From the NCBI RefSeq assembly GCF_030378205.1, contig NZ_CP127385.1, forward strand, positions 6,426,001-6,490,000: DNA of 64,000 nt, given 5' to 3'. The translations under genes and the position numbers were made by a program. Below the pieces are notes generated by a model that was not told the DNA's origin, did not search any database, and was given only the letters and a program-made list of their open reading frames with translations. The DNA is from Bradyrhizobium sp. NP1 (GTDB lineage: Bacteria; Pseudomonadota; Alphaproteobacteria; Rhizobiales; Xanthobacteraceae). Shown in pieces: positions 1 through 50,882 of the stretch. Every line of letters begins with the position of its first letter. Position 1 is the first letter of the stretch.

Positions 1-246
1 GTAGAAGCCGGAGAACGCTGGATAGGTGCGCACCGTTCGGTTCAAAAAGATACGGCCAAGGCGGGGGTCCTTGGCCGTGTCGATCATCTGGGGCTCGCCA
101 ATGGCAGCTAGGAGTCGTTCGGCCGCATTCGCATATCGCATCGGATCACTTCGACACGACTCCAGATATTCAGCCATCGACATATCGCTCTGGCTTCGCG
201 CCTCGAAGGATCGAGCGAAAGCGTTGAACAGAGAATCGTTGTACAT
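1..246 (-). CDS. prkA: PrkA family serine protein kinase, N-terminal part (runs off the window)
   Basis: The 82 residues visible from the ATG at 246 match the start of PrkA, an AAA+-like serine protein kinase linked to stress and stationary-phase physiology. The string YANAAERLLAAIGEP (about residues 38-52), followed by DPRLGRIFLN and YPAFSGFY, is the family's N-terminal PrkA AAA segment. The Walker A region lies beyond the window edge. A strong Shine-Dalgarno GGAGAGGG sits just upstream of the ATG, and a sigma-EcfG-type promoter lies 36 nt upstream. In relatives prkA heads a prkA-yeaH-ycgB operon; the downstream genes cannot be seen here. Identity is confident; function rests on the family. 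Confidence 0.93.
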   Translation of the reverse strand, partial: MYNDSLFNAFARSFEARSQSDMSMAEYLESCRSDPMRYANAAERLLAAIGEPQMIDTAKDPRLGRIFLNRTVRTYPAFSGFY

Positions 247-32810: not shown

Positions 32811-33497
32811 TCAATCCGCGCGCAGGCGATAGCCGATCCCGGTCTCGGTCAGCACGAAATGCGGGCGTTCCGGATCGGCCTCGATCTTCTGGCGGAGCTG
32901 GCGCACATAGACCCGCAAATATTGCGCGTCGGTCAATTCGTCCCACAGCTCCTTCAGGAGAAAGCGGTGGGTGAGCACCTTGCCGGCATGCTGCACCAGA
33001 ACGCGCAGCAGGTCGTATTCCTTCGGCGACAGCCTGACCTCGCGCTCGCCGACCTTGACGATGCGGCGCACCAGGTCGACGGAAAGATCTCCTGAACGGA
33101 ACACCGGGCGTTCGCCATGGGCCTGCAACTGGTGCCGCAGCGCGGCGCGCATGCGCGCAAGCAGCTCGTCCATGCCGAACGGCTTGGTCAGATAATCGTC
33201 GGCGCCGAGGTCGAGCGCCTCGACCTTGCCGGCCTCGTCGCCGCGGCTCGACAGCACCACGATCGGCACGGCATCGTTGCGGCCGCGGATCATGCGCAAC
33301 AGCTCGAGCCCCTGGATGTCGGGCAGGCCGAGGTCGAGAATGATCAGCGCCGGGCTCTCGGCCAGCAGCTCCAGCGCGGTGCGGCCGTTGGCGGCTTCCA
33401 GGATTTCATAGCCCTGCGTGCTCAGGCCCATCCGCAACAATTTTCGGATCGGCGGCTCGTCATCGATGACCAGAACCTTGATCGACGGAGAGTTCAT
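32811..33497 (-). CDS. kdpE: KDP operon response regulator KdpE
   Basis: An OmpR/PhoB-family transcription factor of 228 aa. The receiver domain (1 to about 120) has the acidic pocket IDDE (11-14) and phospho-acceptor Asp55 in IILDLGLPD. The winged-helix DNA-binding domain follows (KEYDLLRVLVQHAGKV). It is phosphorylated by KdpD and activates the kdp operon under K+ limitation or osmotic stress. It overlaps kdpD by 4 nt. A candidate operator for it occurs before kdp and before several small genes nearby. Confidence 0.95.
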   Translation of the reverse strand: MNSPSIKVLVIDDEPPIRKLLRMGLSTQGYEILEAANGRTALELLAESPALIILDLGLPDIQGLELLRMIRGRNDAVPIVVLSSRGDEAGKVEALDLGADDYLTKPFGMDELLARMRAALRHQLQAHGERPVFRSGDLSVDLVRRIVKVGEREVRLSPKEYDLLRVLVQHAGKVLTHRFLLKELWDELTDAQYLRVYVRQLRQKIEADPERPHFVLTETGIGYRLRAD

Positions 33498-36211
33498 GCG
33501 GCGGTATCCAGCGTTTGCGTTTCGGCCGGCACCGGCAGGCGGATCATGATCACGGCACCGCTGCGGTCCGTGCGGTTGGCGGCGACGATCGTGCCATGCA
33601 TGGCCTCGACGAAGCCGCGCGAGATGGCAAGTCCGAGCCCGGTGCCGGGCCGGACGTGGTCGCCCTTCTGTACACGATAGAACTTGTCGAACACGCTCTC
33701 CAGCTCGCCTTTCGGGATGCCCTCACCCTCATCGGCGATCTGCAGCGTCACCTGCCCGTCGTCGCGCCCGCTGCGGATCGCGATCGTGGTGTCGGGCGGC
33801 GAATATTTCGCCGCATTGTCGAGCAGGTTGAACACCACCTGCTCGAACAGCACCGCGTCCAGCCTGAGCATCGGCAGCTCCGCGGCCAACTCCAGCGACA
33901 CCCTGTGGCGCGCCAGTATCTTGCCGGCCCGGCGCAACGCGCTGCCGACGATCTCGCCGATGTCGTGCAGCGCCAGATTCGGCGCGATCGCGCCGGATTC
34001 GATCCTCGTCATGTCGAGCAGATTGGCGATGAAGCGGTTGAGCCGCTCGGATTCGTCGATCACGGTCGCCAGCAGATCACGCTTCTCGGCATCGGACAGG
34101 CCGCTGGCGAGGTCGCGCATGGTCGAGGCTGCGCCCAGCACCGAGGCGAGCGGCGTCTTCAGGTCGTGCGAGATCGAGGTCAGGAGCGCCGAGCGCAGCC
34201 GCTCGGATTCCACGGTGCGCTTGACCCGGTCCATGTCCTCGACCAGCAGCACACGCTCGATCGCGAGAGCGCCCTGGTCGACCAGGGCGTCCAGCAGCCG
34301 GCGCTGGTCGGGCGTCAGCAGCGGGCCGGTACGGTCATTGTCGATGCCGATGACGCCGATCGGCCCGCGCCCGGTACGCATCGGCTGGAACAGCCGTTTT
34401 GCCCCCGGCAGCGTGTCGGAGCCGCGTCCGGCCGGACGGTCGTTGCCCCAGGCCCAGTTCGCCGCGGCGAGATCGGCCTGGTCGAGCTGGTCTTCCGGCG
34501 GATAGCCCGCCTTCACCGTCAGCACGCCGTTCTCCGGCAACAGCAGCACCACGCGCACCTTGAGCATCAGCGCGGTCTGGTAGGCGGTCGCCCACAGCAC
34601 GTCGTCGAGCGTCGCGGTGCCGGCGAGCTTGCGGCTGAAGGCGTAAAGCTGCTCGGTGGTCCGCACCCGCCCGATTGCGGTATCAGCCTGTGTGCGCACG
34701 CGCGCGGCGACGTTTGACACCAGCACGGCAATCAGCATGAAGAAGAAGAATGCCGCGATATTGGTCGGATCGGTGATGGTGAAGGTATAGATCGGCGGCA
34801 GGAAGAAGAAATTGTAGCACAGCGAGGCGGCGACGCTGGCAAGCAGCGACGGCCACAGGCCGTAGCGCACGGCGACGACGACGACGGCGGTGAGAAACAC
34901 CAGATCGACGTTCTCGATGCGGAACCACGGCTGGATCAGCTCGGCGGCGGCAAGGCCGACCGCCGCGATCACCAGCGCCATCAGATAGGGCCGCGGGTTG
35001 AACGGCTCCACGCCCGCCGCGGTCTGCACCTTGCCGGCCGGTCCGGGCGGCAAATCATCGCCGGCAATCACGTTGACGCTGATATTGCCGGCCCGCCGCA
35101 CCAGATCGTGCACCACCGAGCCCTGCACGATCTCGAACCAGCGCGAGCGCGTCGACTTGCCGATGATGATCTGGGTGACGTTGTTGGCCTGCGCGAACTT
35201 GATGATGTCGTCGGCGATGCGGCGCCCGACCCCGGGGATGGTGAGGGCCTCGCCGCCGAGGGTCTCGGCAAGCCGCATGGTGTCGGCGAGCCGATCGCGC
35301 TGCTCGTCGGTGAGTTGCAGGCTGCGCCGGGTCTCGATCGAGATCGCAGTCCATGGCGCATGCACGCGATCGGCGATGCGCTTGGTGTAGCGCACGAGCC
35401 CGGCCGCACGCGGATCCTCGCTGACGCAGACCAGGATGCGTTCGCCGGCGGCCCAGGGCCCGGCGATTGCATTGGCCTGCATGTGGGTCAGGAGCTGCTC
35501 GTCGACCCGGTCGGCGGTCCGCCGCAGCGCCAGCTCACGCAGCGCCGTGAGGTTGCCGGGCGAAAAATAATGCTCGAGCGCGCGCTCGGCCTGCTTGGGA
35601 ACGTAGACCTTTCCCTCTTTCAGCCGCTGGATCAGGTCGTCGGGGGTAAGATCGATCAGCTCGATGCCGTCGGCACGGTCGAAGATCGAATCCGGCACCG
35701 TTTCGCGCACCCTCACATGCGTGATCTGCGCGACCACGTCGTTCAGGCTTTCGATATGCTGGACGTTGACCGCGGTATAGACGTCGATGCCGCGGGTCAG
35801 CAGCTCCTCGACGTCGAGATAGCGCTTCGGATGCCGGCAGCCGGGCGCGTTGGTGTGGGCGAGCTCGTCGACCAGCACGAGCTGCGGCCGCCGCGCGATC
35901 ACGGCATCGAGATCCATCTCCTCCAGGATCTGGTCGCGGTATTCGAGGCGCTTGCGCGGGATGATTTCGAGGCCGCGCAGCAGCGCTTCCGTCTCCGCCC
36001 GGCCGTGCGTTTCGACGACGCCCACCACGACGTCGACGCCGGACTTCGCCCGGGCATGCGCGCTCTGCAGCATCTCGTAGGTCTTGCCGACGCCGGGGGC
36101 GGCACCGATGAAGATCTTCAGCCGCCCGACGCCGTTTTCCTCGCGCCGGGCGGCTTCCAACAGGGCTTCGGGCGACGGACGCTGTTCAGGATCTCGGCGT
36201 TGACTGGCCAT
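33494..36211 (-). CDS. kdpD: Osmosensitive K+ channel histidine kinase KdpD
   Basis: A 905-aa sensor kinase with the full KdpD layout. The N-terminal KdpD domain has Walker A GAAPGVGKT (36-44). A UspA-like domain lies around 250-370, then four closely spaced membrane helices (about 400-500), a GAF domain, and HisKA/HATPase at the C-terminus, with phospho-acceptor His682 in SISHDLKTPL. It senses K+ availability and turgor and phosphorylates KdpE. Its gene follows kdpC with a 41-nt gap, so the order is kdpFABCDE in one direction. Confidence 0.95.
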   Translation of the reverse strand: MASQRRDPEQRPSPEALLEAARREENGVGRLKIFIGAAPGVGKTYEMLQSAHARAKSGVDVVVGVVETHGRAETEALLRGLEIIPRKRLEYRDQILEEMDLDAVIARRPQLVLVDELAHTNAPGCRHPKRYLDVEELLTRGIDVYTAVNVQHIESLNDVVAQITHVRVRETVPDSIFDRADGIELIDLTPDDLIQRLKEGKVYVPKQAERALEHYFSPGNLTALRELALRRTADRVDEQLLTHMQANAIAGPWAAGERILVCVSEDPRAAGLVRYTKRIADRVHAPWTAISIETRRSLQLTDEQRDRLADTMRLAETLGGEALTIPGVGRRIADDIIKFAQANNVTQIIIGKSTRSRWFEIVQGSVVHDLVRRAGNISVNVIAGDDLPPGPAGKVQTAAGVEPFNPRPYLMALVIAAVGLAAAELIQPWFRIENVDLVFLTAVVVVAVRYGLWPSLLASVAASLCYNFFFLPPIYTFTITDPTNIAAFFFFMLIAVLVSNVAARVRTQADTAIGRVRTTEQLYAFSRKLAGTATLDDVLWATAYQTALMLKVRVVLLLPENGVLTVKAGYPPEDQLDQADLAAANWAWGNDRPAGRGSDTLPGAKRLFQPMRTGRGPIGVIGIDNDRTGPLLTPDQRRLLDALVDQGALAIERVLLVEDMDRVKRTVESERLRSALLTSISHDLKTPLASVLGAASTMRDLASGLSDAEKRDLLATVIDESERLNRFIANLLDMTRIESGAIAPNLALHDIGEIVGSALRRAGKILARHRVSLELAAELPMLRLDAVLFEQVVFNLLDNAAKYSPPDTTIAIRSGRDDGQVTLQIADEGEGIPKGELESVFDKFYRVQKGDHVRPGTGLGLAISRGFVEAMHGTIVAANRTDRSGAVIMIRLPVPAETQTLDTAA

Positions 36212-36252: not shown

Positions 36253-36855
36253 CTATTTCGCCGCCGCATCCAGCGCCAAATTGAGCGCCAGCACGTTGAC
36301 GCGGCGCTCGCCGAGCAGGCCGGCAAAGCGGGCCTGCGTGTTCTGCGCTACCAGCTCGCGGACACGCTCTTCGGGCATGTTGCGCGCCTTCGCCACCCGC
36401 CGCACCTGGAAGAGCGCGCCTTCCGGCGAGATATCGGGGTCGAGGCCGCTCGCCGAGGTGGTGACGAGGTCGGCGGGCACCGGCGTCGACGGATTTTCCG
36501 TCTTCAGCTTGTCGACGTCCTCCTTCAGACGGTCGGCCAGCGCCTTGCTGGTCGGCCCGAGATTGGAGCCGCCGGAATTGGCCGCGTTATAGGGCGCCGG
36601 CACGGTCTTGGTGGAATCGGCGGGATCGGGCGCCGTGGTCGCCGAGAGCCGGCCGTGGAAATACTTCTCGTCCTTGAATTCCTGGCCGATCAGCGCCGAG
36701 CCGACCACCTTGCCGTCCTTCTCGATCAGGCTGCCTTGCGCCTGCGTCGGGAAAAGCACGCCGGCAATGCCGGTCATGGCGAGGGGATAGGCCAGGCCCG
36801 TGATCAGCGTAAGCGCGACCAGGAGCACGATGGCGGGACGGATTTCTCTGATCAT
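36253..36855 (-). CDS. kdpC: K+-transporting ATPase KdpC subunit
   Basis: The 200-aa accessory subunit that stabilises the KdpFABC complex and assists ATP binding. One N-terminal membrane helix (about 8-32, [23 protein letters not shown]) precedes a periplasmic domain. The domain holds the family strings [28 protein letters not shown] and [19 protein letters not shown]. Length is typical. Separated from kdpB by a 73-nt gap containing a shortened dispersed repeat. Confidence 0.95.
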
Positions 36856-36928: not shown

Positions 36929-39046
<2,118 letters not shown>

Positions 39047-39068
39047 GGATGTAACTCCGAAAGATCGA

Positions 39069-40769
39069 TCAGAACAGGTTGCCGGCATTGTCAGCGAGAT
39101 GCTCGACGATCGGCCCCAGCGCGAGCGCGGGGAAGAAGGTCAGACCGCCGATGATCAGGATGACGCCGACGACGAGGCCGACGAACAGGCTGCCCGTGGT
39201 CGGGAAGGTGCCGGCCGAGGGCGGAATCGATTTCTTGCTCGCGAGCGAGCCGGCGATCGCCATCGCCGGCACGATCATGAAGAAGCGGCCGACGAACATC
39301 GCGCTGGCAAGCGTCAGGTTATAGAAGAAGGTGTTGCCGGAGAGCCCAGCGAAGGCCGAGCCGTTGTTGCCGGTCGAGGACGTATAGGCATACAGCACCT
39401 CGGTGAAGCCGTGCGGACCCGCATTGGCCATCGACGCCACCGCCGACGGCAGCACGACCGCGACCGACGTCCAGCCGAGATACATCAGCGGCAGCACCAG
39501 GATCGCGAGCATCGCCATCTTGACCTCGCGCGCCTCGATCTTCTTGCCGACATACTCCGGCGTGCGGCCGACCATCAGGCCCGCCACGAAGATCGACAGG
39601 ATGACGAACAGCAGCATGCCGTAGAGCCCGGCGCCGACGCCGCCGACGATGATCTCGCCGAGCTGCATGTTGATCAGCGGGATCATGCCGCCGAGCGCGG
39701 TGAAGCTGTCATGCATGGCGTTGACGGCGCCGCACGAGGCCGCGGTGGTGACGACGGCAAACAACGCGGACCCGACGATGCCGAAGCGGACCTCCTTGCC
39801 TTCCATGTTGCCGGAAAGCCCCAGCGCCTGCATGGTGCTGGTGCCATTTGCTTCCGCCCAGTAGGCAACCGCGACGCCGGCCACGAACAGCACGCCCATC
39901 ACGGCGAGGATCGCCCAGCCCTGGCGCTGGTTGCCGACCATGCGGCCGAACACATTGGTCAGCGCCGCCCCGATCGCAAAGATCGAGATCATCTGCACGA
40001 AGTTCGACAGCGCGGTCGGGTTCTCGAAGGGATGCGCGGCATTGGCGTTGAAGAAGCCGCCGCCATTGGTGCCGAGCATCTTGATCGCGACCTGCGAGGC
40101 GACCGGGCCGACCGCGATGGTCTGCTTGGCGCCCTCCAGTGTCGTCGCGTCGACATAGGGACCGAGCGTCTGCGGCATGCCTTGCCAGACCAGGAACAGC
40201 GTGTAGACGACGCAGATCGGCAGCAGCACATAGAGCGTGCAGCGGGTGATATCGACCCAGAAGTTGCCGACGGTACGCGCCGAGGCCCGGGCAAAGCCGC
40301 GAATCAGCGCGACCGCGAGCACGATGCCGGTCGCCGCCGACAGGAAGTTCTGATGCGTGAGACCGACCATCTGGACGAGATAGGACAGCGTGCTTTCGCC
40401 ACCGTAGTTCTGCCAGTTGGTATTGGTGATGAAGCTGATCGCGGTGTTGAAGGAAAGATCTTCCGCGACCGCCGACTGTTCGGCCGGATTGAACGGAAGA
40501 TGGGCCTGCAGCCGCATCAGGAGGTAAATGACCAGGAAGCCGCCGACGTGGAACAGCAGCATCGCGACCGTGTAAGTCAGCCAATGCTGCTCGCGCCGCT
40601 CGTCGACGCCGCCGATCCAGTAGAGGCCGGCTTCGACCGGACGCAGCACCGGCGAGAGAAACGTGCGCTCGCCGCTGAACACGCGCGTCATGTACCAGCC
40701 GAGCGGCTTGGTGAGTGCGACGATGATCGCGCAATAAAGGATGATTTGAAGCCAGCCGATGACGGTCAT
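39069..40769 (-). CDS. kdpA: K+-transporting ATPase KdpA subunit
   Basis: The K+-binding, channel-like membrane subunit of KdpFABC (566 aa, about ten membrane helices). Selectivity-filter-type sequences are visible: [33 protein letters not shown] and [16 protein letters not shown] 40769 begins [17 protein letters not shown], the family's first helix. It follows kdpF with a 36-nt gap. Confidence 0.96.
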
Positions 40770-40805: not shown

Positions 40806-40895
40806 TCAGAACCGCTCGGGCCGCAGCAGCGCGTAGGTCAGGTAGAACAGCAGGCCGAGTGAAACGAGGCCGGCGAGCGAATAGTCGAAGATCAT
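40806..40895 (-). CDS. kdpF: K+-transporting ATPase KdpF subunit
   Basis: A 29-residue single-span peptide, MIFDYSLAGLVSLGLLFYL then TYALLRPERF. The Y-LLRPERF ending is a KdpF hallmark. It stabilises the KdpABC complex in the membrane. It lies between kdpA and another tiny membrane ORF, all in the same direction, and has a GAG-rich ribosome binding site. Confidence 0.92.
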   Translation of the reverse strand: MIFDYSLAGLVSLGLLFYLTYALLRPERF

Positions 40896-40909: not shown

Positions 40910-40993
40910 TCAGAGCCGTTCGCAGGCATAGGTGTAGCCAATCGCAAGAGCGAAAAGGCCGAATGCGAGTGCGAGCATGACAAGATCGAGCAT
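40910..40993 (-). CDS. 27-aa membrane peptide at the head of the kdp operon
   Basis: ATG 40993 to TGA 40910 encodes 27 residues: one hydrophobic helix (VMLALAFGLFALAIGYTYA) ending CERL. It sits 14 nt before kdpF in the same direction, downstream of the kdp operator, so it is the first gene of the kdp transcript. The pattern resembles small peptides seen ahead of kdpF in related genera, often listed as KdpF-like or hypothetical. A role as a second small Kdp subunit is an inference from position and topology. Confidence 0.7.
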   Translation of the reverse strand: MLDLVMLALAFGLFALAIGYTYACERL

Positions 40994-41061
40994 GAGGTGT
41001 TCCCGTGCGTTCTCGAAAGGCCTTACGGCCTCTTGATCGCGGGAACAGGTGCCACCCGAAG

Positions 41062-41109
41062 CATAGGTTTTCGAGATAACCGAGCGGCCAACGTTATAGG
41101 AATCTTATA
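41062..41109 (-). promoter_or_regulatory. Kdp operon control region: KdpE-like direct repeat and -10-like element
   Basis: On the minus strand, in steps of 11 nt: TATAAGATTCC, TATAACGTTGG, CCGCTCGGTTA, TCTCGAAAACC, TATG. The paired half-sites TTTATA-N5-CCTATA resemble the E. coli KdpE site TTTATA-N5-TTTACA. The final TATG is at 41062-41065, 69 nt before the 27-aa ORF. Five further copies with the same spacing occur up to 45906. Confidence 0.65.
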
Positions 41110-41245
41110 AAGACGATCCTCTTCCGCCTCCTCCTGCAGGCGCCAGCGCCGCGATCGCGTTGACGCGCCACATCGCGGCGGCGCGGGCCTCGCGCGTTTC
41201 GCAGGATCACATATAGGCGGATGGCGGCACCCGGTCGCCGGCCCC
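41110..41245. other. Remainder of the kdp / 41360 divergent intergenic region
   Basis: The 366-bp gap 40994-41359 separates the kdp operon (minus) from the 41360 gene (plus). It contains the two regulatory motifs listed separately at 41062-41109 and 41246-41293, and a small hairpin GGCC-TTAC-GGCC (41019-41030) in the kdp leader. The part given here is GC-rich and I see no gene or further signal in it. Confidence 0.5.
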
Positions 41246-41293
41246 TATGAAATCCCTATATCTTGGCCTGCCGATCCCTCTCGTTTTCCAACA
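41246..41293 (+). promoter_or_regulatory. KdpE-like direct-repeat motif before the 41360 gene
   Basis: TATGAAATCCC, TATATCTTGGC, CTGCCGATCCC, TCTCGTTTTCC at 11-nt steps. The half-sites are CCTATG-N5-CCTATA. The fifth unit is AACA instead of TATG, so this copy is the weakest of the six. It lies 67 nt before the ATG. Confidence 0.45.
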
Positions 41294-41359
41294 GCGTTCC
41301 GACCATCTTGCCGGCAACGGCCGCATCGATCGCGGCCTTTCCGTCATTGGAACGCCGTC

Positions 41360-41827
41360 ATGTCAGCCTTCTCCGAACACCATGAGCCCGCCACCGTTGC
41401 CGATCGCCTGGGCGAGGCAGCGGGCGCGAGCGAAAGCCTCTTGCGCGACGTCATCGACAAGGCATGCCGCCGATTCCCGTCACTTGGTCAGCGCGAGAAG
41501 AGTGCGCAGGTCGAACGCTTCATCGCATCGCGCGCCTGGACGGACGCGGCGCTGGCGCTGATCGAGCTGGAACTGCCGCTGTGGCAGCTGCGCCGCATCG
41601 CCTATGATGGCGGCGAATGGTACTGCGCCCTGTCCCGAACCTGCGGCCTTCCCGACTGGCTCGATCAATCGGTCGAGGCGCGGCACACCGATCTGGCGCT
41701 GGCATTGCTCGCCGCGCTTGTCGAGGTCCAGCGCATAGCGGCGCCGGAAAGCCGGCCGAGCGTCCCGACGGTCGCGTGCGACGCGCGGCCGCTCGATGAG
41801 CCGCTCTGCTGCGACAATTTCGGCTGA
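41360..41827 (+). CDS. Hypothetical protein, 155 aa
   Basis: I do not recognise a family. The protein is soluble and mostly helical by composition, with segments such as RRFPSLGQREKSAQVERFIASR and WTDAALALIELELPLWQLRRIAYDGGEWYCALS. The pairing of WQLRRI with GEWYCALS suggests a small globular fold. The ATG at 41360 is divergent from the kdp operon and preceded by a variant of the shared direct-repeat motif. The next gene begins 3 nt after its stop, so the two are co-transcribed. Confidence 0.7.
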   Translation: MSAFSEHHEPATVADRLGEAAGASESLLRDVIDKACRRFPSLGQREKSAQVERFIASRAWTDAALALIELELPLWQLRRIAYDGGEWYCALSRTCGLPDWLDQSVEARHTDLALALLAALVEVQRIAAPESRPSVPTVACDARPLDEPLCCDNFG

Positions 41828-41830
41828 GCG

Positions 41831-42145
41831 ATGAAGAACCGCATGCCGGAGCAGCGAAGCCTGGTGCAGCCGCCGAGCCGGTCGAGACGGCTGAATTCGA
41901 AGCAGGCACTCGTTCGTTTCGGCTTCCGCATTCTCATCCTCGGCGGATTTGCGGCCTTCAGCAGCATCGGATTCGAACGGGGTCTTGCGACGCTGCTGTG
42001 GATGTCGATCGTGCTGTGCGCCGTCATCGGCACCATCAGGCGCGAACCGGTCTTTGGCCCGATCCTCAACCATTGGGACGAGGCCGCTGCCTATGCCGCG
42101 CTCTACGCGCTGGTCGGCGCGCTCGGCCTCCACGCGCCGGCCTGA
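41831..42145 (+). CDS. Small membrane protein, 104 aa
   Basis: A basic N-terminus (about 30 residues with many Arg/Lys) is followed by hydrophobic segments at about 30-48 (ILILGGFAAFSSIGF), 50-66 (LATLLWMSIVLCAVIGT) and 86-102 (AAAYAALYALVGALGLHA), so two or three membrane spans. No family recognised. It starts 3 nt after the preceding gene and both may be controlled by the motif upstream of 41360. Positive-inside logic puts the N-terminus in the cytoplasm. Confidence 0.68.
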   Translation: MKNRMPEQRSLVQPPSRSRRLNSKQALVRFGFRILILGGFAAFSSIGFERGLATLLWMSIVLCAVIGTIRREPVFGPILNHWDEAAAYAALYALVGALGLHAPA

Positions 42146-42152
42146 CGGCCGC

Positions 42153-42200
42153 TATGCCGCGCCTATAAGATCGATTTCGCGTTGCCCTCGAATTCATATC
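42153..42200 (+). promoter_or_regulatory. KdpE-like direct-repeat motif before the 42331 gene
   Basis: TATGCCGCGCC, TATAAGATCGA, TTTCGCGTTGC, CCTCGAATTCA, TATC at exact 11-nt steps. It has the same half-site spacing and the same CTCG position as the kdp copy. The last unit is 131 nt before the GTG at 42331. Confidence 0.6.
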
Positions 42201-42330
42201 TGCCCGGGACGATATTGGCGCCGTGAGCAACAAGCCTGCCTCAGCCGCCCATCGTCGGCGCATTCCTCCGAAAACGCAGTCCGCTGGTCCGGTGCGCAGG
42301 CCCTGCTCCATCTTTGAAAGGAACAGCAAC

Positions 42331-42603
42331 GTGAAGCTCGTCGAACCTCCATCGTGCAGTTTGCCTTCCAGCGTCGTCTTCATCGGCCGCGACAGCCACG
42401 GCCATTGGGTCGCGCAAGAACAGAATGGCCGCTTCGGCGGCCTGTTCGTCAACCGCGCGCAAGCTGTCAAATACGCATTGTTCGAGAACGGCCAGCACCC
42501 CGAAATGATCGTCGAGCTCTCGGGTGCGATCGAGCTCGATACCGACGGCGGACTGCTTTCACCCCGGCGCGGCAGGGCGCGCAAGACCCAGGCTACCGCC
42601 TGA
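42331..42603 (+). CDS. Hypothetical protein, 90 aa
   Basis: Starting at GTG 42331 (AAGGA 8 nt upstream) the protein begins MKLVEPPSCSLPSSVVFIGRD and contains HGHWVAQEQNGRFGGLFVNRAQAVKYALFENG, a compact beta-alpha pattern ending in a basic tail. A GTG at 42223 in the same frame would add 36 Arg/Pro-rich residues with no ribosome binding site, so I prefer the shorter form. No family recognised with confidence. The direct-repeat motif at 42153-42200 is its likely control region. Confidence 0.65.
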   Translation: MKLVEPPSCSLPSSVVFIGRDSHGHWVAQEQNGRFGGLFVNRAQAVKYALFENGQHPEMIVELSGAIELDTDGGLLSPRRGRARKTQATA

Positions 42604-42629
42604 CGCCGTCGTTCACGCGGGAGGACCAG

Positions 42630-43073
42630 ATGATCGAACCTCGTTCGGATTCAGATCGGGAGCAGCTCGTCGATACCCTGATCGCGCTGACGCACATGTC
42701 CAATCATCATCGCACCATCGTCGGCGGCGAAGATGGCGTGGAGCTGCTTCCGGCGCTTCGGCGCCGCGGACTGGTTCGCATCACGCTTGCCGCGGCGAGC
42801 CGTATCGGGAAGGGACAGTATCCGGTCGGCCTGATTGCGGGCGCTAGCACGCCGGCGGCGATCGAAACCGCGCTCGCCCGGATCTCGCCTTACCTCGGCG
42901 CCAGCGCTGCTGTCGCCGTCGTCATCGCATCGCGCGATGCGGAGTGCTGCCTGACCATCCGCAACAAGCTGGAACGGATGGGCTTCCGGATCGAAGCCGG
43001 TGTGCGGTGCCAGCTCGGCCTGGTGCTCTCGGCCCGGCGTCTGGGTTTCAACCACATGAAAGAGGCGGCCTAG
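42630..43073 (+). CDS. Hypothetical protein, 147 aa
   Basis: ATG 42630 has a GGGAGGA ribosome binding site 6 nt upstream and follows the previous gene by 26 nt. The sequence shows an alternating strand/helix pattern: LVRITLAAASRIGKGQYPVGLIAG, then AAVAVVIASRDAECCLTIRNKLERMGFRIEAG. This could be a small alpha/beta fold. I do not recognise a family. It is probably co-transcribed with the 42331 gene and possibly with the DapA-like gene 16 nt downstream. Confidence 0.65.
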   Translation: MIEPRSDSDREQLVDTLIALTHMSNHHRTIVGGEDGVELLPALRRRGLVRITLAAASRIGKGQYPVGLIAGASTPAAIETALARISPYLGASAAVAVVIASRDAECCLTIRNKLERMGFRIEAGVRCQLGLVLSARRLGFNHMKEAA

Positions 43074-43089
43074 CCGTTACAAGCCCGCC

Positions 43090-44013
43090 ATGACGACCGC
43101 CGTCGACTCCGCTTCCTGGCTCACGGGCTACATCCCCGATCTCCCGACCCCTTTCGATGCGGCCGGCGGGCTCGATCTCGAGGCTTTCGCGCGGCTTTGC
43201 GCGCGCCAGATCGAGGCAGGCGTGCCTGCGGTCGTGGTCTGCGAAACTGCCGGCGAGGCATCGACACTGACGCTTGCCGAGCGCAAAGCCATCATTCGCA
43301 CCGCGGCCGGGATCGCGCGCGGGCGCGCCCGGATCATCGCCGGCGCCGGCTCGAACGCCACCGCACGTGCCATCGAGCTGGCGCACTGCGCGGAAGCGGC
43401 AGGCGCCGACGCCGTCCTTTCGGTCGTGCCCTATTACAACAAGCCGATGCAGGCGGGCATCTACCAGCACTTCCGGGCCATCGCCGATGATAGTCGCCTG
43501 CCGATCATCATCCACGATGCGCCCGCGCGAACGGTTCGCGAGCTCGCCGACGACACGCTCGCAAAGCTGGCGCAATCGAGCCGGTTCGTGGCCTTGCGCG
43601 ACGGAGCCGGCGATGTCGGCCGACCGCTGCGTCTGGCGGGCCTGCTCCGCCCGGGATTCCGGCTGCTATCCGGCCATGATGCAACCGCGCTCGGCTATAT
43701 CGCGGGCGGCGGTGATGGCTGCATCTCGGCGGTTTCCAACGTCATGCCTGACCTCTGCCAGGCGATCTTCACCAATCTGAAGCAAGGCCGACCGCAGGCG
43801 GCGCGGCACCTGTTCAGGCGACTGATACCGCTGCAAGCCTGCCTTGCCGACGCCGATCCCGCCGCGCTCAAATATGCGTTGAGCCTTCTTGGTCTGTTGC
43901 GACCGGATTCGCGGCTGCCCATCGTTGAACCGGACGACGCTGCGAAAGCCGTAATCGCAAGAGCCGTCGCCGGGGTGGCCGACGAGGATTTGGCCTGGGC
44001 AGCCGAGGCATAG
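43090..44013 (+). CDS. DapA/NAL-family protein lacking the Schiff-base lysine
   Basis: A 307-aa protein with the dihydrodipicolinate synthase/N-acetylneuraminate lyase TIM-barrel layout: CETAGEASTLTLAER (51-65, the GTTGES loop) and VVPYYNKP (112-119). Residues normally catalytic are changed. The tyrosine of the YNVPxRT loop is His142 in IIHDAPART, and the Schiff-base lysine of the IKEATG strand is Arg170 in VALRDGAGD. It therefore cannot work as a standard class I aldolase through that lysine. It lies among small genes of unknown function, not near lysine-biosynthesis genes, so I do not call it dapA. Confidence 0.82.
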   Translation: MTTAVDSASWLTGYIPDLPTPFDAAGGLDLEAFARLCARQIEAGVPAVVVCETAGEASTLTLAERKAIIRTAAGIARGRARIIAGAGSNATARAIELAHCAEAAGADAVLSVVPYYNKPMQAGIYQHFRAIADDSRLPIIIHDAPARTVRELADDTLAKLAQSSRFVALRDGAGDVGRPLRLAGLLRPGFRLLSGHDATALGYIAGGGDGCISAVSNVMPDLCQAIFTNLKQGRPQAARHLFRRLIPLQACLADADPAALKYALSLLGLLRPDSRLPIVEPDDAAKAVIARAVAGVADEDLAWAAEA

Positions 44014-44043
44014 ATCTGAACGACGCGCCTGGGAGGCGCCGTC

Positions 44044-44445
44044 ATGAATGCACCACCCTCGATTCAACCGCATGCGAAGATGCTGCGCGCGTGGCAGCTG
44101 GCGATCCTGCGCTTCGCGGTGACCCACGACAATGCCGACCGGCTGAACGTGATCACCATCGCGGGCGAGCTCGACGCGCTCGGACGGACGGGGCACAGCA
44201 AGGCGACGTTCAGCTATTTCCGCAGGGCAAGCGCCGAGCTTTGCGCCGCCATCCTGCGGCCGGACGAGCCTGACAATGCGGTCCTGCGCGAATTTATCGC
44301 GCGCACCGACGATATCAGGCTCAGGCGCGCCTTCACCGCGGTCGTCAGCGTCGAACCGCAGGAAGCGCGCCAGCCGCGAAGGACGGCCCGACGCGATATC
44401 GGATTGTGGCGGGGATTGCCGGCACGGCGCAACAGCTCGCCGTAA
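44044..44445 (+). CDS. Hypothetical protein, 133 aa
   Basis: ATG 44044 has GGGAGG within 10 nt upstream and follows the DapA-like gene by 30 nt. The protein is largely helical (MLRAWQLAILRFAVTHDNADRLNVITIAGELDAL) with a basic C-terminal tail. I do not recognise the family. A GCGCC-TGGGA-GGCGC hairpin (44025-44039) covers its ribosome binding site and could modulate translation. Confidence 0.62.
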   Translation: MNAPPSIQPHAKMLRAWQLAILRFAVTHDNADRLNVITIAGELDALGRTGHSKATFSYFRRASAELCAAILRPDEPDNAVLREFIARTDDIRLRRAFTAVVSVEPQEARQPRRTARRDIGLWRGLPARRNSSP

Positions 44446-44461
44446 GACGGGTCGCTGCAGG

Positions 44462-44659
44462 CTAGGTGCCGGAGGCCGGGAATCGTTCGCCGGGATGCTT
44501 CTCGCGCCACTTGGGTCCAGGACCGCGCATGTAGTGGTTTTCCGGCCGGTACTTCCGGCGGGGACCGTGCCAGGTCGGAAAGAGGAACGCCAGCAGAGAG
44601 CCGACGGCGCCGCTGGTCAGCCAGCGCAATTCCGATGCGACGGACGGAAGCGGTTTCAT
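44462..44659 (-). CDS. Small hypothetical protein, 65 aa
   Basis: ATG 44659 is preceded by a near-perfect AGGAGGT ribosome binding site that overlaps the end region of the gene upstream. The peptide has a short hydrophobic stretch (GAVGSLLAFLFPTW) and then a Pro/Arg/His-rich tail with GPRRKYRPENHYMRGPGPKWREKHPGE. A membrane-associated or peripheral protein is possible. No family recognised. It forms a two-gene unit with 44665-44907. Confidence 0.65.
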   Translation of the reverse strand: MKPLPSVASELRWLTSGAVGSLLAFLFPTWHGPRRKYRPENHYMRGPGPKWREKHPGERFPASGT

Positions 44660-44664
44660 GTCGG

Positions 44665-44907
44665 CTACCTCCTGCCGATGCCGTGATATCCAGGATCGCG
44701 CTGCGCGCGCCGCAGTCTCGCATCGGCCATCGCCTCGATCGCGAAGCGCAGATAGAAGTTGACGCGATTGAGCGCGGCGCGACCGCGCCCCCATTTGCGC
44801 TGCGGCGTGCTGCCGAACCGGTAGCCGCGCCACGACGGATCCACACCCCCTGCGCTGCCGGGCGGCAACGCGCGTTCGTCACGATTGCTGCCAGGAAAAT
44901 GCACCAT
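44665..44907 (-). CDS. Small hypothetical protein, 80 aa
   Basis: ATG 44907 has GAGGAG 8 nt upstream. The protein is basic (VDPSWRGYRFGSTPQRKWGRG) and ends with a helix-like RVNFYLRFAIEAMADARLRRA. No family recognised. It is 5 nt upstream of the 65-aa gene, so the pair is an operon. Its promoter region carries the shared direct-repeat motif (44958-45005). Confidence 0.62.
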   Translation of the reverse strand: MVHFPGSNRDERALPPGSAGGVDPSWRGYRFGSTPQRKWGRGRAALNRVNFYLRFAIEAMADARLRRAQRDPGYHGIGRR

Positions 44908-44957
44908 CGCCGGACTCCTCGCTTACATCGACTTCGAAGCGAACATGAGCGCAGGCG

Positions 44958-45005
44958 CATAGGAAATCGAGACGACATTCCGCTCGAACCCATAGCGGCG
45001 GCATA
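44958..45005 (-). promoter_or_regulatory. KdpE-like direct-repeat motif before the 44907 gene
   Basis: On the minus strand TATGCCGCCGC, TATGGGTTCGA, GCGGAATGTCG, TCTCGATTTCC, TATG, at exact 11-nt steps. The last unit is 51 nt before the ATG at 44907. Confidence 0.62.
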
Positions 45006-45042
45006 AGAACCGATTGCGAAAAAGCCGCGCGGCGGCGGCGCT

Positions 45043-45090
45043 TACATTCCTCCTATGACGCGGCGCACCAGGTCCTCTCGCATTCCTATG
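45043..45090 (+). promoter_or_regulatory. KdpE-like direct-repeat motif before the 45190 gene
   Basis: TACATTCCTCC, TATGACGCGGC, GCACCAGGTCC, TCTCGCATTCC, TATG at exact 11-nt steps. The half-sites CTTACA-N5-CCTATG include a TTACA element like the second E. coli KdpE half-site. It is divergent from the 44958-45005 copy. Confidence 0.62.
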
Positions 45091-45189
45091 CCGGCATCGA
45101 CACATTGCGCGCATCAAACGCGCAAGCGAACGATCATCGGCTGCCGACCTGGCTGCCGATGATCGCAGCCAGATCCGGGAATTTCTTCC

Positions 45190-45378
45190 ATGACAATGCT
45201 GACGCAGGGCTTCGAACGGAACACCTACCCGCAGGCGACGACGAAAACCGCGCCAAGGGCGTTGCTTGCCGCCGTGAGACGATTCTGCAAGGGCGCCGCT
45301 ATCGTGCTGGCGGCAGGCACCCTGCTTGCAGGCGTCATCGCGCTGAAGGCGGCAATCTACATGCCGCATCTGCAGTGA
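45190..45378 (+). CDS. Small membrane protein, 62 aa
   Basis: ATG 45190. The N-terminal 30 residues are polar and basic. One membrane span follows (about 34-55, KGAAIVLAAGTLLAGVIALKAA) with a short external tail IYMPHLQ. This is N-in, C-out by positive-inside reasoning. No family recognised. It is 99 nt downstream of the shared direct-repeat motif and just before a dispersed palindromic repeat that may act as its terminator. Confidence 0.6.
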   Translation: MTMLTQGFERNTYPQATTKTAPRALLAAVRRFCKGAAIVLAAGTLLAGVIALKAAIYMPHLQ

Positions 45379-45386
45379 TGCGCCCC

Positions 45387-45517
45387 TAGAGCGTGATCCG
45401 GAAAAGTGTGTAGCGGTTTTCCCTCGCGACAAACGCGAAACGCGTTTGCGCGGAGATCATGCTCAATTAGGAATCTAAAGCGCGATGACGATTCAACCTG
45501 ATCTCATCGTGCTCTAG
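45387..45517. repeat. Dispersed Rhizobiales-type palindromic repeat (TAGAGC...GCTCTA)
   Basis: A 131-bp element with inverted ends TAGAGC / GCTCTA. It contains two fold-back parts: AGAGCGTGATCCGGAAAAG with GGAGATCATGCTC, and AAAGCGCGATGA with TCTCATCGTGCTCT. I recognise this as a common intergenic repeat in Bradyrhizobium and relatives. It sits between two convergent genes. Confidence 0.8.
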
Positions 45518-45540
45518 CCGCGATCGCAGCGGCCGGACCG

Positions 45541-45801
45541 TCAGAAGTCCCATTTGTCGCCGAGAATGAGCGGCTGCTGCGGATATTTCTTCAGCGCCTG
45601 CGGGCCGGCTTCCCCGTCGCCATAGTGCGGGCGAAACATCAGCTCGCTCTGCAGGCGTCGCACCTTGGCGGCGACGATCGCGCGATGCAGCGTGCGGAGC
45701 GTCACGCGAACCCATTTGCGCGCACGCGTCAGCGTGAAGCGGCTCTGGCCGGCAACACCGTGCCGGTCTTCGTTGTAAAGGTGTAGCAAGGTCATGCCCA
45801 T
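45541..45801 (-). CDS. Small hypothetical protein, 86 aa
   Basis: ATG 45801, or 45795 two codons later. The protein is basic and soluble: RFTLTRARKWVRVTLRTLHRAIVAAKVRRLQSELMFRPHYG looks like an amphipathic helical core, ending LILGDKWDF. No family recognised. The direct-repeat motif 45859-45906 lies 58 nt upstream. It is not FdsD, the small subunit sometimes found next to formate dehydrogenase, as judged from its lack of resemblance. Confidence 0.65.
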   Translation of the reverse strand: MGMTLLHLYNEDRHGVAGQSRFTLTRARKWVRVTLRTLHRAIVAAKVRRLQSELMFRPHYGDGEAGPQALKKYPQQPLILGDKWDF

Positions 45802-45858
45802 CGTCCCAATGCCGGCGCGGGCGAACCGCGCCGGAAGTCAGGAAGATGCGAAGGCCGG

Positions 45859-45906
45859 CATAGGAAATCGAGAGGGCGGGCGGCCGCGCCGCATAGGCGC
45901 GGCATA
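45859..45906 (-). promoter_or_regulatory. KdpE-like direct-repeat motif before the 45801 gene
   Basis: On the minus strand TATGCCGCGCC, TATGCGGCGCG, GCCGCCCGCCC, TCTCGATTTCC, TATG at exact 11-nt steps. It shares TCTCGATTTCCTATGC with the 44958 copy although the middle unit differs completely. It lies between the fdhA stop and the small gene. Confidence 0.62.
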
Positions 45907-45916
45907 AAGGCGGCCG

Positions 45917-48682
45917 CTATTCGGCCGCCGAACGGAGTTCCGCCTTCTCGGCGCGCACCGCGCAGAACTTGAACTCCGGAATCTTGCCGAACGGATCGAG
46001 CGCCGGGTTGGTGAGCAGGTTCGCGGCCGCCTCCGCATAGCAGAACGGCATGAACACCATATTCTCCGGCACGTCGCGATCGGAGCGCACCTTGATCTCG
46101 ACCGCGCCGCGGCGAGTCTCGAGGCGGACGAAATCGCCAGGCTTCAGGTTCATGCGCCGCATGTCCTTCGGCGTCATGAACGCCACCGCCTCCGGCTCGA
46201 TCTCGTCGAGCACTTGGGAGCGGCGCGTCATCGAGCCGGTGTGCCAGTGCTCGAGCACGCGGCCGGTGGAGAGCACCATCGGATATTCGTCGTCGGGCAG
46301 TTCGTCCGGCGGAATGACTTTCGCCGGCACGATCTTGCCGCGGCCGCTTTCGGTCGGGAATCCCGTGGTGAAGATGATCTCGTTGCCGGGCTTGCCGGGA
46401 TCGTCGGCCGGATAGGTCACGGCGCCCTCGCGCACCAGCCGCTCCCAGCTGATGTTGGCGAGCGACGGCATCAGCTGCGCCATTTCGGTGTAGACGTCGG
46501 CGGGCCCGGCGTAATTCCAGGGCAGGCCCATGCGCTTGCCGATCTCCTGGATGATCCAGAGATCCTGCCGCGCGTCGCCGGGCGGCTTGATCACCTCGCG
46601 CGCGAGCTGCACGCGGCGATCGGTGTTGGTGAAGGTGCCGGATTTCTCCGCAAAGGCCGATGCCGGCAGGATCACGTCGGCGTGGAACGCCGTCTCGGTG
46701 ACGAACAGGTCCTGCACCACGAGATGCTCGAGCTTGGCGAGCGCCTCGCGCGCGTGTTGCAGGTCGGGATCGGACATCGCCGGGTTCTCACCCTCGATAT
46801 ACATGCCGCGGATCTCGCCGGCATGGATCGCGTTCATGATCTCGACCACGGTCAGCCCGCGGACCGGATCAAGATCCTTCTGCCACAGCTTCTCGAAGGC
46901 ACCGCGCATGTCGTCGCGCCCGACCGGCTGGTAGTCGGGCAGGAACATCGGGATCAGGCCGGCGTCGGAAGCGCCCTGCACGTTGTTCTGGCCGCGCAGC
47001 GGATGCAGGCCGGTGCCGGGCCGGCCGACCTGGCCGGTGATCAGCGCGAGCGCGATCAGGCAGCGCGCATTGTCGGTGCCATGGACGTGCTGGCTGATGC
47101 CCATGCCCCAGAAGATGATCGAGGACTTGGCGCGCGCATACATGCGTGCCACCTCGCGCAGGGTCTCGGCCGGGATGCCGCAGATCGGCGCCATCTTCTC
47201 CGGCGTGAACTCCTTGATCTTGGTCTTCAGCTCGTCATAGCCCTCGGTGTAGCCGGCGATGTATTGCTCGTCCGTCAGGCCTTCGGTGATGATGGTGTTG
47301 ATCATTGCGTTGAGCAGCGCGACGTCCGAGCCCGGCTTGAACGCGAGATGCTTGTAGGCATGGCGCGACAGCGTCTGCCGGCGCGGATCGATCACGATCA
47401 GCTTGGCGCCGTTCTTGGCGGCGTTCTTGATGAAGGTCGCCGCGACCGGATGGTTCACGGTCGGGTTGGCGCCGATCACGATGATGACCTCGGCGTCGAG
47501 CGCGGCGGCAAATGGCGCCGACACCGCGCCCGAGCTCAGGCCTTCGAACAGCGCTGCGACCGAGGACGCATGGCACAGCCGCGTGCAGTGATCGACGTTG
47601 TTGGAGCCGAAGCCGGTGCGCACCAGCTTCTGGAACAGATAGGCTTCCTCGTTGGACCCCTTGGCCGAGCCGAAGCCGGCCAGCGCCTTGACGCCGTGCG
47701 TGTCGCGGATCCTGACGAGACCACCCGCGGCAAGGTCAAGCGCCTCCTCCCAGGAGGCCTCGCGGAAATGCGTGAACGGGTTGGCCGGGTCGACCTGGTC
47801 GTTGGCGTCCTTCTTCGCATTGGGCAGCCGCACCAGCGGCTTGGTGATGCGATGCGGATGATGGATGTAGTCGAAGCCGAAGCGGCCCTTGACGCAGAGG
47901 CGGTTGTGGTTGGCCGGGCCGTCGCGGCCCTCGGCATAGATCACCTTCTCGTCCTTGACCTGATAGGTGACCTGGCAGCCGACGCCGCAGAACGGGCAGA
48001 GCGAGTCGACCTTCCGGTCCGCATAGGTGACGCGGGTCTGCCTGTCGTCGAGCATGACGGCCGGCATCAGCGCGCCGGTCGGACAGGCCTGCACGCACTC
48101 GCCGCAGGCCACGCAGGTGGACTCGCCCATCGGATCGTCGAAGTCGAACACGATCTTGGAGTCGTGGTTGCGGTAGGCCATGCCGATGACGTCGTTGACC
48201 TGCACTTCGCGGCAGGCGCGCACGCATAGCCCGCACTGGATGCAGGCATCGAGGTTGACACGCATCGCCGGATGGCTGGCATCGCTCGCCCAGCGCTCGG
48301 CGGCCGGGAAACGGCTCTCGGTGACGCCGGACTTTTCAGCCCAGTGCCAGAACTTCGAATCCGGATCGTGCGAGGTCTCGCGCGCCGGCTGGTCGGCAAC
48401 GAGCAGCTCCATCACCATCTTCTGCGCCGCGACGGCGCGGTCGCTCGCGGTCTTCACCTTCATGCCGACGGTCGGCGTCCGCTTGCAGGATGCCGCCAGC
48501 ACGCGCTCGCCCTCGATCTCGACCATGCAGGCGCGGCAATTGCCGTCCGGCCGGTAGTCCGGCTCCGGCGAGTAGCACAGATGCGGGATTTCGTTACCCT
48601 GGCGCTTGGCGACCTGCCAGATGGTCTCGCCGGGCTTGGCCTGCACCTGCTTGCCGTCGAGCTCGAACGTGATCTTGGTCAT
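45917..48682 (-). CDS. fdsA: NAD-dependent formate dehydrogenase, alpha (molybdenum) subunit
   Basis: The catalytic subunit, oxidising formate to CO2 in the cytoplasm. The 921-aa protein has an N-terminal [2Fe-2S] domain (CYSPEPDYRPDGNCRAC...ASC), a His/Cys region, and two [4Fe-4S] clusters (CIQCGLCVRAC, CVACGECVQACP). The Mo-bisMGD domain opens with CPFCGVGCQVTY. Cys370 in HCTRLCHASS is the expected Mo ligand (Cys rather than selenocysteine). It overlaps the diaphorase subunit gene by 4 nt. Electrons pass to NAD+ via that subunit. It needs FdhD and the MGD pathway encoded about 8 kb away. Confidence 0.94.
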   Translation of the reverse strand: MTKITFELDGKQVQAKPGETIWQVAKRQGNEIPHLCYSPEPDYRPDGNCRACMVEIEGERVLAASCKRTPTVGMKVKTASDRAVAAQKMVMELLVADQPARETSHDPDSKFWHWAEKSGVTESRFPAAERWASDASHPAMRVNLDACIQCGLCVRACREVQVNDVIGMAYRNHDSKIVFDFDDPMGESTCVACGECVQACPTGALMPAVMLDDRQTRVTYADRKVDSLCPFCGVGCQVTYQVKDEKVIYAEGRDGPANHNRLCVKGRFGFDYIHHPHRITKPLVRLPNAKKDANDQVDPANPFTHFREASWEEALDLAAGGLVRIRDTHGVKALAGFGSAKGSNEEAYLFQKLVRTGFGSNNVDHCTRLCHASSVAALFEGLSSGAVSAPFAAALDAEVIIVIGANPTVNHPVAATFIKNAAKNGAKLIVIDPRRQTLSRHAYKHLAFKPGSDVALLNAMINTIITEGLTDEQYIAGYTEGYDELKTKIKEFTPEKMAPICGIPAETLREVARMYARAKSSIIFWGMGISQHVHGTDNARCLIALALITGQVGRPGTGLHPLRGQNNVQGASDAGLIPMFLPDYQPVGRDDMRGAFEKLWQKDLDPVRGLTVVEIMNAIHAGEIRGMYIEGENPAMSDPDLQHAREALAKLEHLVVQDLFVTETAFHADVILPASAFAEKSGTFTNTDRRVQLAREVIKPPGDARQDLWIIQEIGKRMGLPWNYAGPADVYTEMAQLMPSLANISWERLVREGAVTYPADDPGKPGNEIIFTTGFPTESGRGKIVPAKVIPPDELPDDEYPMVLSTGRVLEHWHTGSMTRRSQVLDEIEPEAVAFMTPKDMRRMNLKPGDFVRLETRRGAVEIKVRSDRDVPENMVFMPFCYAEAAANLLTNPALDPFGKIPEFKFCAVRAEKAELRSAAE

Positions 48683-50382: not shown

Positions 50383-50536
50383 GGGTTAGGCCTCGCAGGA
50401 CTCGGATCGGAAGCACCGAATTCTAGCCACTGGCATGCCAGATGCCAAGACAAATCGGATGGCTTCATAAGGATTTAGGGGGCATGCGGCGGTACCGCGA
50501 TGCCCTCCTTGCGCCCTTCAGATGCGCGGGCCGGCC

Positions 50537-50791
50537 TCAGCTCTTGCCCATGCAATCTTCGATGTAGAACCAGCGGTCGTCGCCCGCGAGCCCCTTGGCC
50601 TTCACCTCTGCGCGACATGCCTTCAGCTTGGGCCTGTTGGCGCTCCATCTGGCCTTCATTTCCTTGAGCTTCTGCGTGGTCAGCTTGATCTTCGACGGCT
50701 TGGCGTCGCTGCTCGTGCTCTGGGCCGAGGCCGTCTGCAGCGCGCTTGCGACGACCAGCATGGCGGCAAGGCAAACAGTTTTGCGGAACAT
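50537..50791 (-). CDS. Secreted small protein with PsiF-like repeat
   Basis: An 84-aa protein with a signal peptide (residues 1-23, ending ASA-Q). It also has one PsiF-type segment, LKACRAEVKAKGLAGDDRWFYIEDCMGKS shortened here to its key pattern: KACxxxxxxKGLxGDxR...C, with two cysteines 20 or so residues apart. PsiF in E. coli is a phosphate-starvation-inducible periplasmic protein of unknown function. A GGGGGA ribosome binding site precedes ATG 50791. Situated between formate dehydrogenase and the MFS carrier, probably independent. Confidence 0.62.
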   Translation of the reverse strand: MFRKTVCLAAMLVVASALQTASAQSTSSDAKPSKIKLTTQKLKEMKARWSANRPKLKACRAEVKAKGLAGDDRWFYIEDCMGKS

Positions 50792-50882
50792 GGAAATCCC
50801 CCTAAGGCTCGTTCTTCAATATTGGGAAAGTACGCAAGCCCGCGGGACGCGCGAAGCGTACCCGCGGGCTGCACGCGAAGGA

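Follow-up and report, generated by a model that had tools for sequence, protein, structure and literature searches.

Introduction

In Escherichia coli, the response regulator KdpE binds ahead of kdpFABC at the half-sites TTTATA-N5-TTTACA, with a footprint from -72 to -50, and residues R193, R200 and T215 are important for its DNA binding (accessible portions of PMC3264566). The available part of another report states that E. coli KdpE targets a single locus, though 31 binding peaks were seen (PMC7657598). In Sinorhizobium fredii, KdpE binds the kdpFABC promoter in electrophoretic mobility shift assays and kdp is strongly upregulated at low K+ (accessible portions of PMC9239096). Here, we describe six rigidly spaced sites in a 64-kb stretch of the Bradyrhizobium sp. 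NP1 genome (contig NZ_CP127385.1, positions 6,426,001 to 6,490,000; the whole stretch is hereafter called the window), in which they lie beside the kdp operon and the genes for KdpD and KdpE. Judging from sequence comparisons, it is very likely that the motif shared by these sites marks the promoters of a potassium-limitation regulon under KdpD/KdpE, made up of kdp and of small-protein units.

The sites resemble the E. coli kdpFABC promoter in having two 6-bp direct-repeat half-sites with an 11-bp step, placed similarly if the presumed transcription start is right, and with kdpF as the target. They differ from it within the promoter spacer, where E. coli has GCAG and no TATR at the equivalent offset, and in number: the E. 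coli regulator is described, in the text accessible to us, as acting at a single locus, whereas here six sites form one cluster and further ones are unlinked. The S. fredii PTSNtr-KdpDE-KdpFABC system is alike in that KdpE acts on the kdpFABC promoter; unlike the situation described here, where the kup gene of one genome carries the motif, its kup promoter was unbound and the accessible text names no small-protein targets. A literature search, largely without subscription papers, found no description of a wider KdpE regulon for this family.

Occurrence of the motif in the window and the genome

The search pattern was TATR-N7-TATR-N19-CTCG-N6-TATR. At three mismatches or fewer the window holds six matches, on the same coordinates and strands as in the preliminary description of this DNA. 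Three are exact (41062, 44958 and 45859, all on the minus strand), those at 42153 and 45043 (both plus) have one mismatch each and that at 41246 (plus) has two; the deviating positions listed earlier for the last three copies agree with our rescan. In 100 dinucleotide shuffles of the window the mean was 0.09 matches at the same threshold, the largest number was 1 and no shuffle reached 6, which supports the sites as real. The genome (7,712,921 bases in one contig) contains seven matches at two mismatches or fewer, against two for the reversed pattern, and six of the seven fall in the window cluster. Extended by the elements described below, the six putative promoters are as follows.

41046..41111, minus: putative KdpE-type promoter of the 27-amino-acid (aa) open reading frame (ORF) and kdpFABC; exact match, with half-sites at offsets -2..3 and 9..14, CTCG and spacer TATG; -10-like CACCTG at 41046-41051
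41244..41309, plus: putative promoter of the 155-aa/104-aa unit; third element AACA; -10-like CATCTT at 41304-41309
42151..42216, plus: putative promoter of the 90-aa/147-aa/DapA-like/133-aa unit; -10-like GATATT at 42211-42216
44942..45007, minus: putative promoter of the 80-aa/65-aa unit; -10-like CATGTT at 44942-44947
45041..45106, plus: putative promoter of the 62-aa membrane protein; -10-like CACATT at 45101-45106
45843..45908, minus: putative promoter of the 86-aa basic protein; -10-like CATCTT at 45843-45848

Six sites within 5 kb could be copies of a small repeat or of a duplicated segment with no regulatory role. Two of them, at 44958 and 45859, are indeed 72% alike over 50 nt and may be a duplicated pair, so that the six are not fully independent; the earlier wording that the units are otherwise unrelated was too strong for these two promoters. 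Compared with one another, the six are 83% identical in the fixed columns, 43% in the rest of the core and 31% over flanks of 60 nt, and this low identity outside the fixed columns means that they are not copies of one repeat. Moreover, the fixed columns persist across genera and the order while the spacers diverge, and unlinked sites track gene families rather than location. On the flank identity and this pattern of conservation we rejected a repeat origin, whose probability we regard as practically negligible.

The seventh match in the genome, at 5,254,008 and 1.2 Mb from the window, precedes an isolated kdpF-like ORF, MIFDYSLAALVAAGLLFYLIYALLRPERF. This orphan kdpF lies at about 5.2538 Mb (about 5780-5870 of locus L008, minus strand) with the site upstream, and a family search places the only KdpA of the genome in the window, away from it.

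Conservation in Bradyrhizobium

The motif is present, at one mismatch or fewer, in 108 of 117 congeneric genomes, with 390 matches against 24 for the reversed pattern; the hits are thus not scattered at random. KdpA was found in 107 of these genomes, and presence of the motif equals presence of kdpA in 116 of the 117. The sole exception (G035, 80% complete) has the motif and no KdpA. Since its contig (C255) stops within the small-gene cluster, kdp probably falls into a gap of the assembly. None of the ten congeneric genomes without kdpA gave a KdpD match.

From the 107 KdpA-bearing genomes, 40 kdp loci were chosen by the position of KdpA, mostly on long contigs, and an exact site precedes kdpF in every one of them. 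Seven loci from named relatives, found via the 155-aa protein and belonging to Bradyrhizobium and Afipia, were added; the counts for the resulting 47 loci include one duplicate (L040 is the same contig as L070). Together they hold 162 sites at two mismatches or fewer; in the stretches fetched, the side of the kdp promoter that carries kdpABCDE has none.

Promoter architecture

An alignment of 163 distinct sites extends the motif beyond its search pattern. YT precedes the first TATR and CC the second, giving half-sites YTTATG-N5-CCTATR, in which the 11-bp step is built into the search pattern. The four bases after CTCG are mostly A/T, C and C/A precede the third TATR, and a hexamer CATNTT stands at +58..63 (A59 in 94% of sites, T62 in 84%); a set of 16 promoters, each of a different gene, has A59 in 14 cases and T62 in 13. 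This hexamer begins ten bases downstream of the last TATR and 17 bp from TCGAWW (+35..40). The preliminary description had suggested, with caution, that the last TATR is the -10 of an activator-dependent promoter. That assignment fails: the conserved CATNTT suits a -10, with CTCG-AWW as a matching -35 at a distance of 17 bp. Because a CATNTT-type hexamer lies downstream at this distance, the best reading takes the CTCG block as the -35 and puts the last TATR in the spacer. In sequence this TATR is KdpE half-site-like, and three turns of 11 bp separate it from the second half-site. With an assumed transcription start at about +70, 7 nt after CATNTT, the two half-sites would span about -72 to -56. 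The earlier comparison of the paired half-sites with the E. coli KdpE site holds in form and step and, given that start, in position. In an overlay on the K-12 kdp promoter the half-sites share their offset, and TACCCT, which we read as the E. coli -10, falls at +57. The proposed reader is conserved too: residues 7-225 of the window KdpE align with E. coli KdpE (4kny, 2.4e-60), and the residues aligned with R193, R200 and T215 are kept (positions counted by hand in the alignment).

The arrangement recalls that of PhoB/OmpR-type activators, in which an OmpR-family regulator binds direct repeats, spaced 11 bp from one to the next, ahead of a weak core promoter; here, the half-site sequence is different and a third, in-phase element lies inside the spacer. 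Alternatively, the motif could be the promoter of an alternative sigma factor, with the upstream TATR repeats as its only activator part, or with no such part. Both core blocks (-35 and -10) vary unusually little and depart from the housekeeping consensus, and a heat-shock type promoter (CTTGAA / CATNT) resembles CTCGAW / CATNTT. However, in other families of the order the hexamer takes forms such as CATATT, TATCTT or TACCCT, in the manner of a housekeeping -10, and its position often differs by one base, as would suit a -10 (a few loci, L172 and L173, have no clear hexamer). The upstream direct repeat is also as conserved as the core, and only seven sites occur in the genome at two mismatches or fewer. 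We therefore consider an alternative sigma factor unlikely.

Genes behind the sites

The genes of the region are listed below; kdpC and kdpB were named by reading.

32811..33497, minus: 228-aa response regulator KdpE, the putative reader of the sites; its best-named PDB matches are KdpE
33494..36211, minus: KdpD sensor kinase, 905 aa; KdpD family match
36253-36855, minus: kdpC
36929-39088, minus: kdpB
39069..40769, minus: kdpA (PF03814, 1.2e-244)
40806..40895, minus: kdpF, 29 aa (PF09604, 1.3e-10)
40910..40993, minus: 27-aa hydrophobic ORF, MLDLVMLALAFGLFALAIGYTYACERL, between the kdp promoter and kdpF; unannotated, no Pfam match
41360..41827, plus: 155-aa protein of no known family
41831..42145, plus: 104-aa hydrophobic protein, behind the 155-aa gene
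42331..42603, plus: 90-aa protein of no known family, GTG start
42630..43073, plus: 147-aa protein; unlinked homologues, too, sit behind sites
43090..44013, plus: DapA-like (DHDPS-family) protein (TIGR00674, 245.6 bits)
44044..44445, plus: 133-aa protein; one unlinked homologue (L122) lies directly behind a site
44462..44659, minus: 65-aa protein with the motif RPENHYMRGPGPKWREKH; homologues behind sites
44665..44907, minus: 80-aa basic protein; homologues behind sites
45190..45378, plus: 62-aa membrane protein; homologues behind sites
45541..45801, minus: 86-aa basic protein; homologues behind sites

Pfam and NCBIfam scans of the small proteins of the window gave nothing above cut-off except DHDPS and KdpF. 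At E <= 0.001 the 155-aa protein has 3604 homologues and the 90-aa protein 2536, the latter sharing a KLVEPPS start. AlphaFold models of these two proteins (mean predicted local distance difference test score of about 62) are too weak for a fold search.

The window proteins were used as queries in the fetched loci, counting a site at two mismatches or fewer and 450 nt or less upstream. Among kdp-linked placements, the 27-aa ORF and kdpF have such a site in 54/54 cases, the 155-aa homologues in 45/46, the 90-aa homologues in 50/51, the 147-aa homologues in 6/7, the 65-aa homologues in 19/19 (plus four unlinked, in loci chosen for holding a site), the 86-aa homologues in 13/13, the 80-aa homologues in 5/5 and the 62-aa homologues in 13/18. 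The 104-aa gene has no site of its own (0/26) and follows the 155-aa gene in all 26 loci having both; the 133-aa gene has none in 17 kdp-linked loci, the site before its unlinked homologue in L122 being the single case.

Distal and unlinked regions (20 in one set, and others) were fetched for holding a site, and only the identity of their downstream genes is informative. In these regions sites precede homologues of the 90-aa, 147-aa, 65-aa, 133-aa and 155-aa proteins and the 27-aa/kdpF pair, so that recurrence before orthologues holds at linked and unlinked loci. As in the Bradyrhizobium sp. NP1 genome, an orphan kdpF with a site occurs in L109, the one KdpA of each genome lying elsewhere. One genome has a site before the K+ transporter Kup (G121, L105; PF02705, 1.4e-175), and single cases precede a CitMHS-family transporter (L119), a DUF4118 membrane protein (L120) and an EF-hand protein (L114). 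At L119 (genome G109, contig C46), a second cation locus in a relative, a 50-aa ORF also lies behind the site, a second site stands on the opposite strand, and the genes present include an ORF read as Kup-like and one for a response regulator of the OmpR type.

Loci chosen by their site carry a bias that is absent only from the KdpA-chosen loci and from a gene-first test, in which the 90-aa protein was searched in the family irrespective of the motif. It was found in 76 of 248 genomes, and the best 30 of the 96 matches listed were examined. A site lies within 450 nt upstream in 25 of these 30; the reversed pattern and seven of eight altered spacings each gave 0/30. These data bear on whether kdpFABC is the sole real target, with the sites of the small genes as hitch-hikers of a kdp island. 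The small genes mostly adjoin kdp in the fetched Bradyrhizobium loci, as hitch-hiking would have it. Against this, 19 of the 30 gene-first loci are not within 20 kb of a KdpD gene (five on the same contig as KdpD, 14 on other contigs, some of them maybe assembly splits), and 15 of the 19 have the site. We regard hitch-hiking as very unlikely.

Nine congeneric genomes lack kdp (G035 left out; four of the nine are less than 97% complete). Three of the nine keep a 90-aa homologue, in none of which an upstream site was found at four mismatches or fewer, and two keep a 155-aa homologue, that of G052 matching in two reading frames. Of 20 kdp-bearing genomes, 19 have the 155-aa protein and 18 the 90-aa protein. 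Fewer have the 147-aa protein, which was found in 3/20 kdp-bearing and 0/9 kdp-less genomes and in G035.

Of the 35 loci holding both genes, 34 have the DapA-like gene downstream of the 90-aa gene and in the same orientation. The start of the DapA-like gene follows that of the 90-aa gene by 267-345 nt in 25 loci and by 619-928 nt in nine, including the window, where the 147-aa gene lies between the two. Its earlier, hedged inclusion among the targets is therefore probably correct, as far as gene order can tell. The protein scores 245.6 bits with the NCBIfam dapA model (cut-off 206). The lysine of solved DHDPS chains, which is the catalytic (Schiff-base) residue, aligns with Arg170 in the window protein, and the lysine required of an active DHDPS is thus absent. 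Among 34 DapA-like ORFs in such a position (the window counted once), 23 have Arg, three Lys and six another residue, and two are truncated.

Three observations concern the surroundings. An Rfam scan of 36-50 kb of the window found no RNA family at gathering score, and a riboswitch reading was dropped on this ground. A segment at about 45390-45525 resembles, by eye, a dispersed intergenic repeat (agcgtgatccggaaaagtg...). Beside the cluster, at 45917-52685 on the minus strand, lie what we take from their sequences to be formate dehydrogenase-like genes and an oxalate/formate-type transporter; the window scan, at three mismatches or fewer, found no site in front of them.

Distribution in the family and the order

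In a family sample of 248 genomes (motif threshold one mismatch or fewer; presence of the regulator scored by KdpD) the motif occurs in 112 genomes and KdpD in 179. KdpD accompanies the motif in 109 of the 112, as against 70 of the 136 genomes without the motif (Fisher 7e-18); for the reversed control pattern it is present in 27 of 31 genomes (p 0.054).

In the order, 63 of 297 genomes have a match. From the listed matches outside the family we picked by hand 20 consensus-like loci, a biased choice that gives no rate; the other listed matches look AT-rich or random. The 20 sites come from nine other families and all precede kdpF, by 64-240 nt, with kdpA following within 246-388 nt in 17 of the loci and a homologue of the 27-aa ORF detected in 14. 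The L174 sequence has a distant kdpA match, 42% identical, at 2.4 kb. At L169 and L170, from another family of the order, a motif precedes kdpF, and the 4 kb fetched hold no kdpA. Within its biased selection, this sample shows the same layout, spacer TATR included, marking predicted kdp promoters in several families of the order.

Another regulator might read the motif at all these promoters, with kdp among its targets. Such a regulator would suit the 70 family genomes that have KdpD but no close site, and the window itself, where small-gene sites outnumber kdp sites. It accords less well with the position of the sites before kdpF in 20/20 of the hand-picked loci, with the genus, in which no kdp goes with no motif, and with half-sites, 11-bp step and, given the presumed start, position equal to those of the E. 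coli KdpE box. We judge it improbable.

Discussion

Control by KdpE of kdp and of the small genes, as proposed in the preliminary description, is supported by the enrichment of the motif, its recurrence before orthologues and its co-presence with kdp in the genus. The regulon would very probably comprise kdp, about ten small-protein families of no assigned function and the DapA-like gene.

Several observations weigh against this view. At one mismatch or fewer, 70 of the 179 KdpD-bearing family genomes have no site, and three motif-bearing genomes have no detected KdpD (G133, G311 and G316); in G133 a one-mismatch site precedes a 155-aa-type ORF and a two-mismatch site precedes kdpF near a contig end. 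In motif-bearing G308 and G179 (L088, L091) the kdp promoter itself is only a two-mismatch variant. The kdp site of the window has a poor -10 hexamer (CACCTG), the orphan kdpF site lacks a good one, and some distal matches score poorly outside the pattern and may be due to chance (e.g., L107, L110 and L114). In the gene-first test, 5/30 of the 90-aa homologues have no site and one altered spacing (9-17-6) scored 6/30, while the kdp-less G009 keeps a two-mismatch site before a diverged 155-aa homologue. Finally, the available text of the published work reports single-locus targeting by E. coli KdpE (PMC7657598), and the accessible portions of the S. fredii study report that KdpE did not bind the kup or trkA promoters (PMC9239096).

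From the sequences we infer KdpE binding, activation at low K+, the transcription start and the role of the third half-site, and these would combine as follows. At low K+, KdpD would phosphorylate KdpE, a step established in E. coli and presumed here. Dimers of KdpE would occupy the direct repeat YTTATG-N5-CCTATR, from about -72 to about -56 relative to the presumed start, and recruit RNA polymerase to a weak promoter with TCGAWW as -35 and CATNTT as -10, 17 bp apart; KdpE may make a third contact at the spacer TATR. The genes driven by this promoter in the genus would be kdpFABC, with the extra 27-aa ORF, and five small-protein units, one of which carries the DapA-like protein without the usual active-site lysine.

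A broader picture would join all of this: a three-half-site KdpE promoter in this order, with the third half-site in phase and inside the -35/-10 spacer, recruited in the Bradyrhizobium family to a K+-starvation regulon. Its members would be about ten undescribed small-protein families, a DHDPS-like protein without its active-site lysine, and the extra 27-aa membrane peptide linked to kdp; individual genomes would add Kup, a CitMHS-family transporter or a DUF4118 membrane protein. We put it forward tentatively, as possible rather than probable in its entirety.

KdpD/KdpE is a textbook sensor, the output of which in E. coli is described as one operon. If the proposed regulon is true, low potassium would trigger a wider programme in soil and nodule bacteria. 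Low K+ would then be the first testable condition for small-protein families without an assigned function, two of which have more than 2,500 homologues, and the rigid geometry of the sites, including the element inside the spacer, would make the mechanism of activation testable in laboratory strains, base by base.

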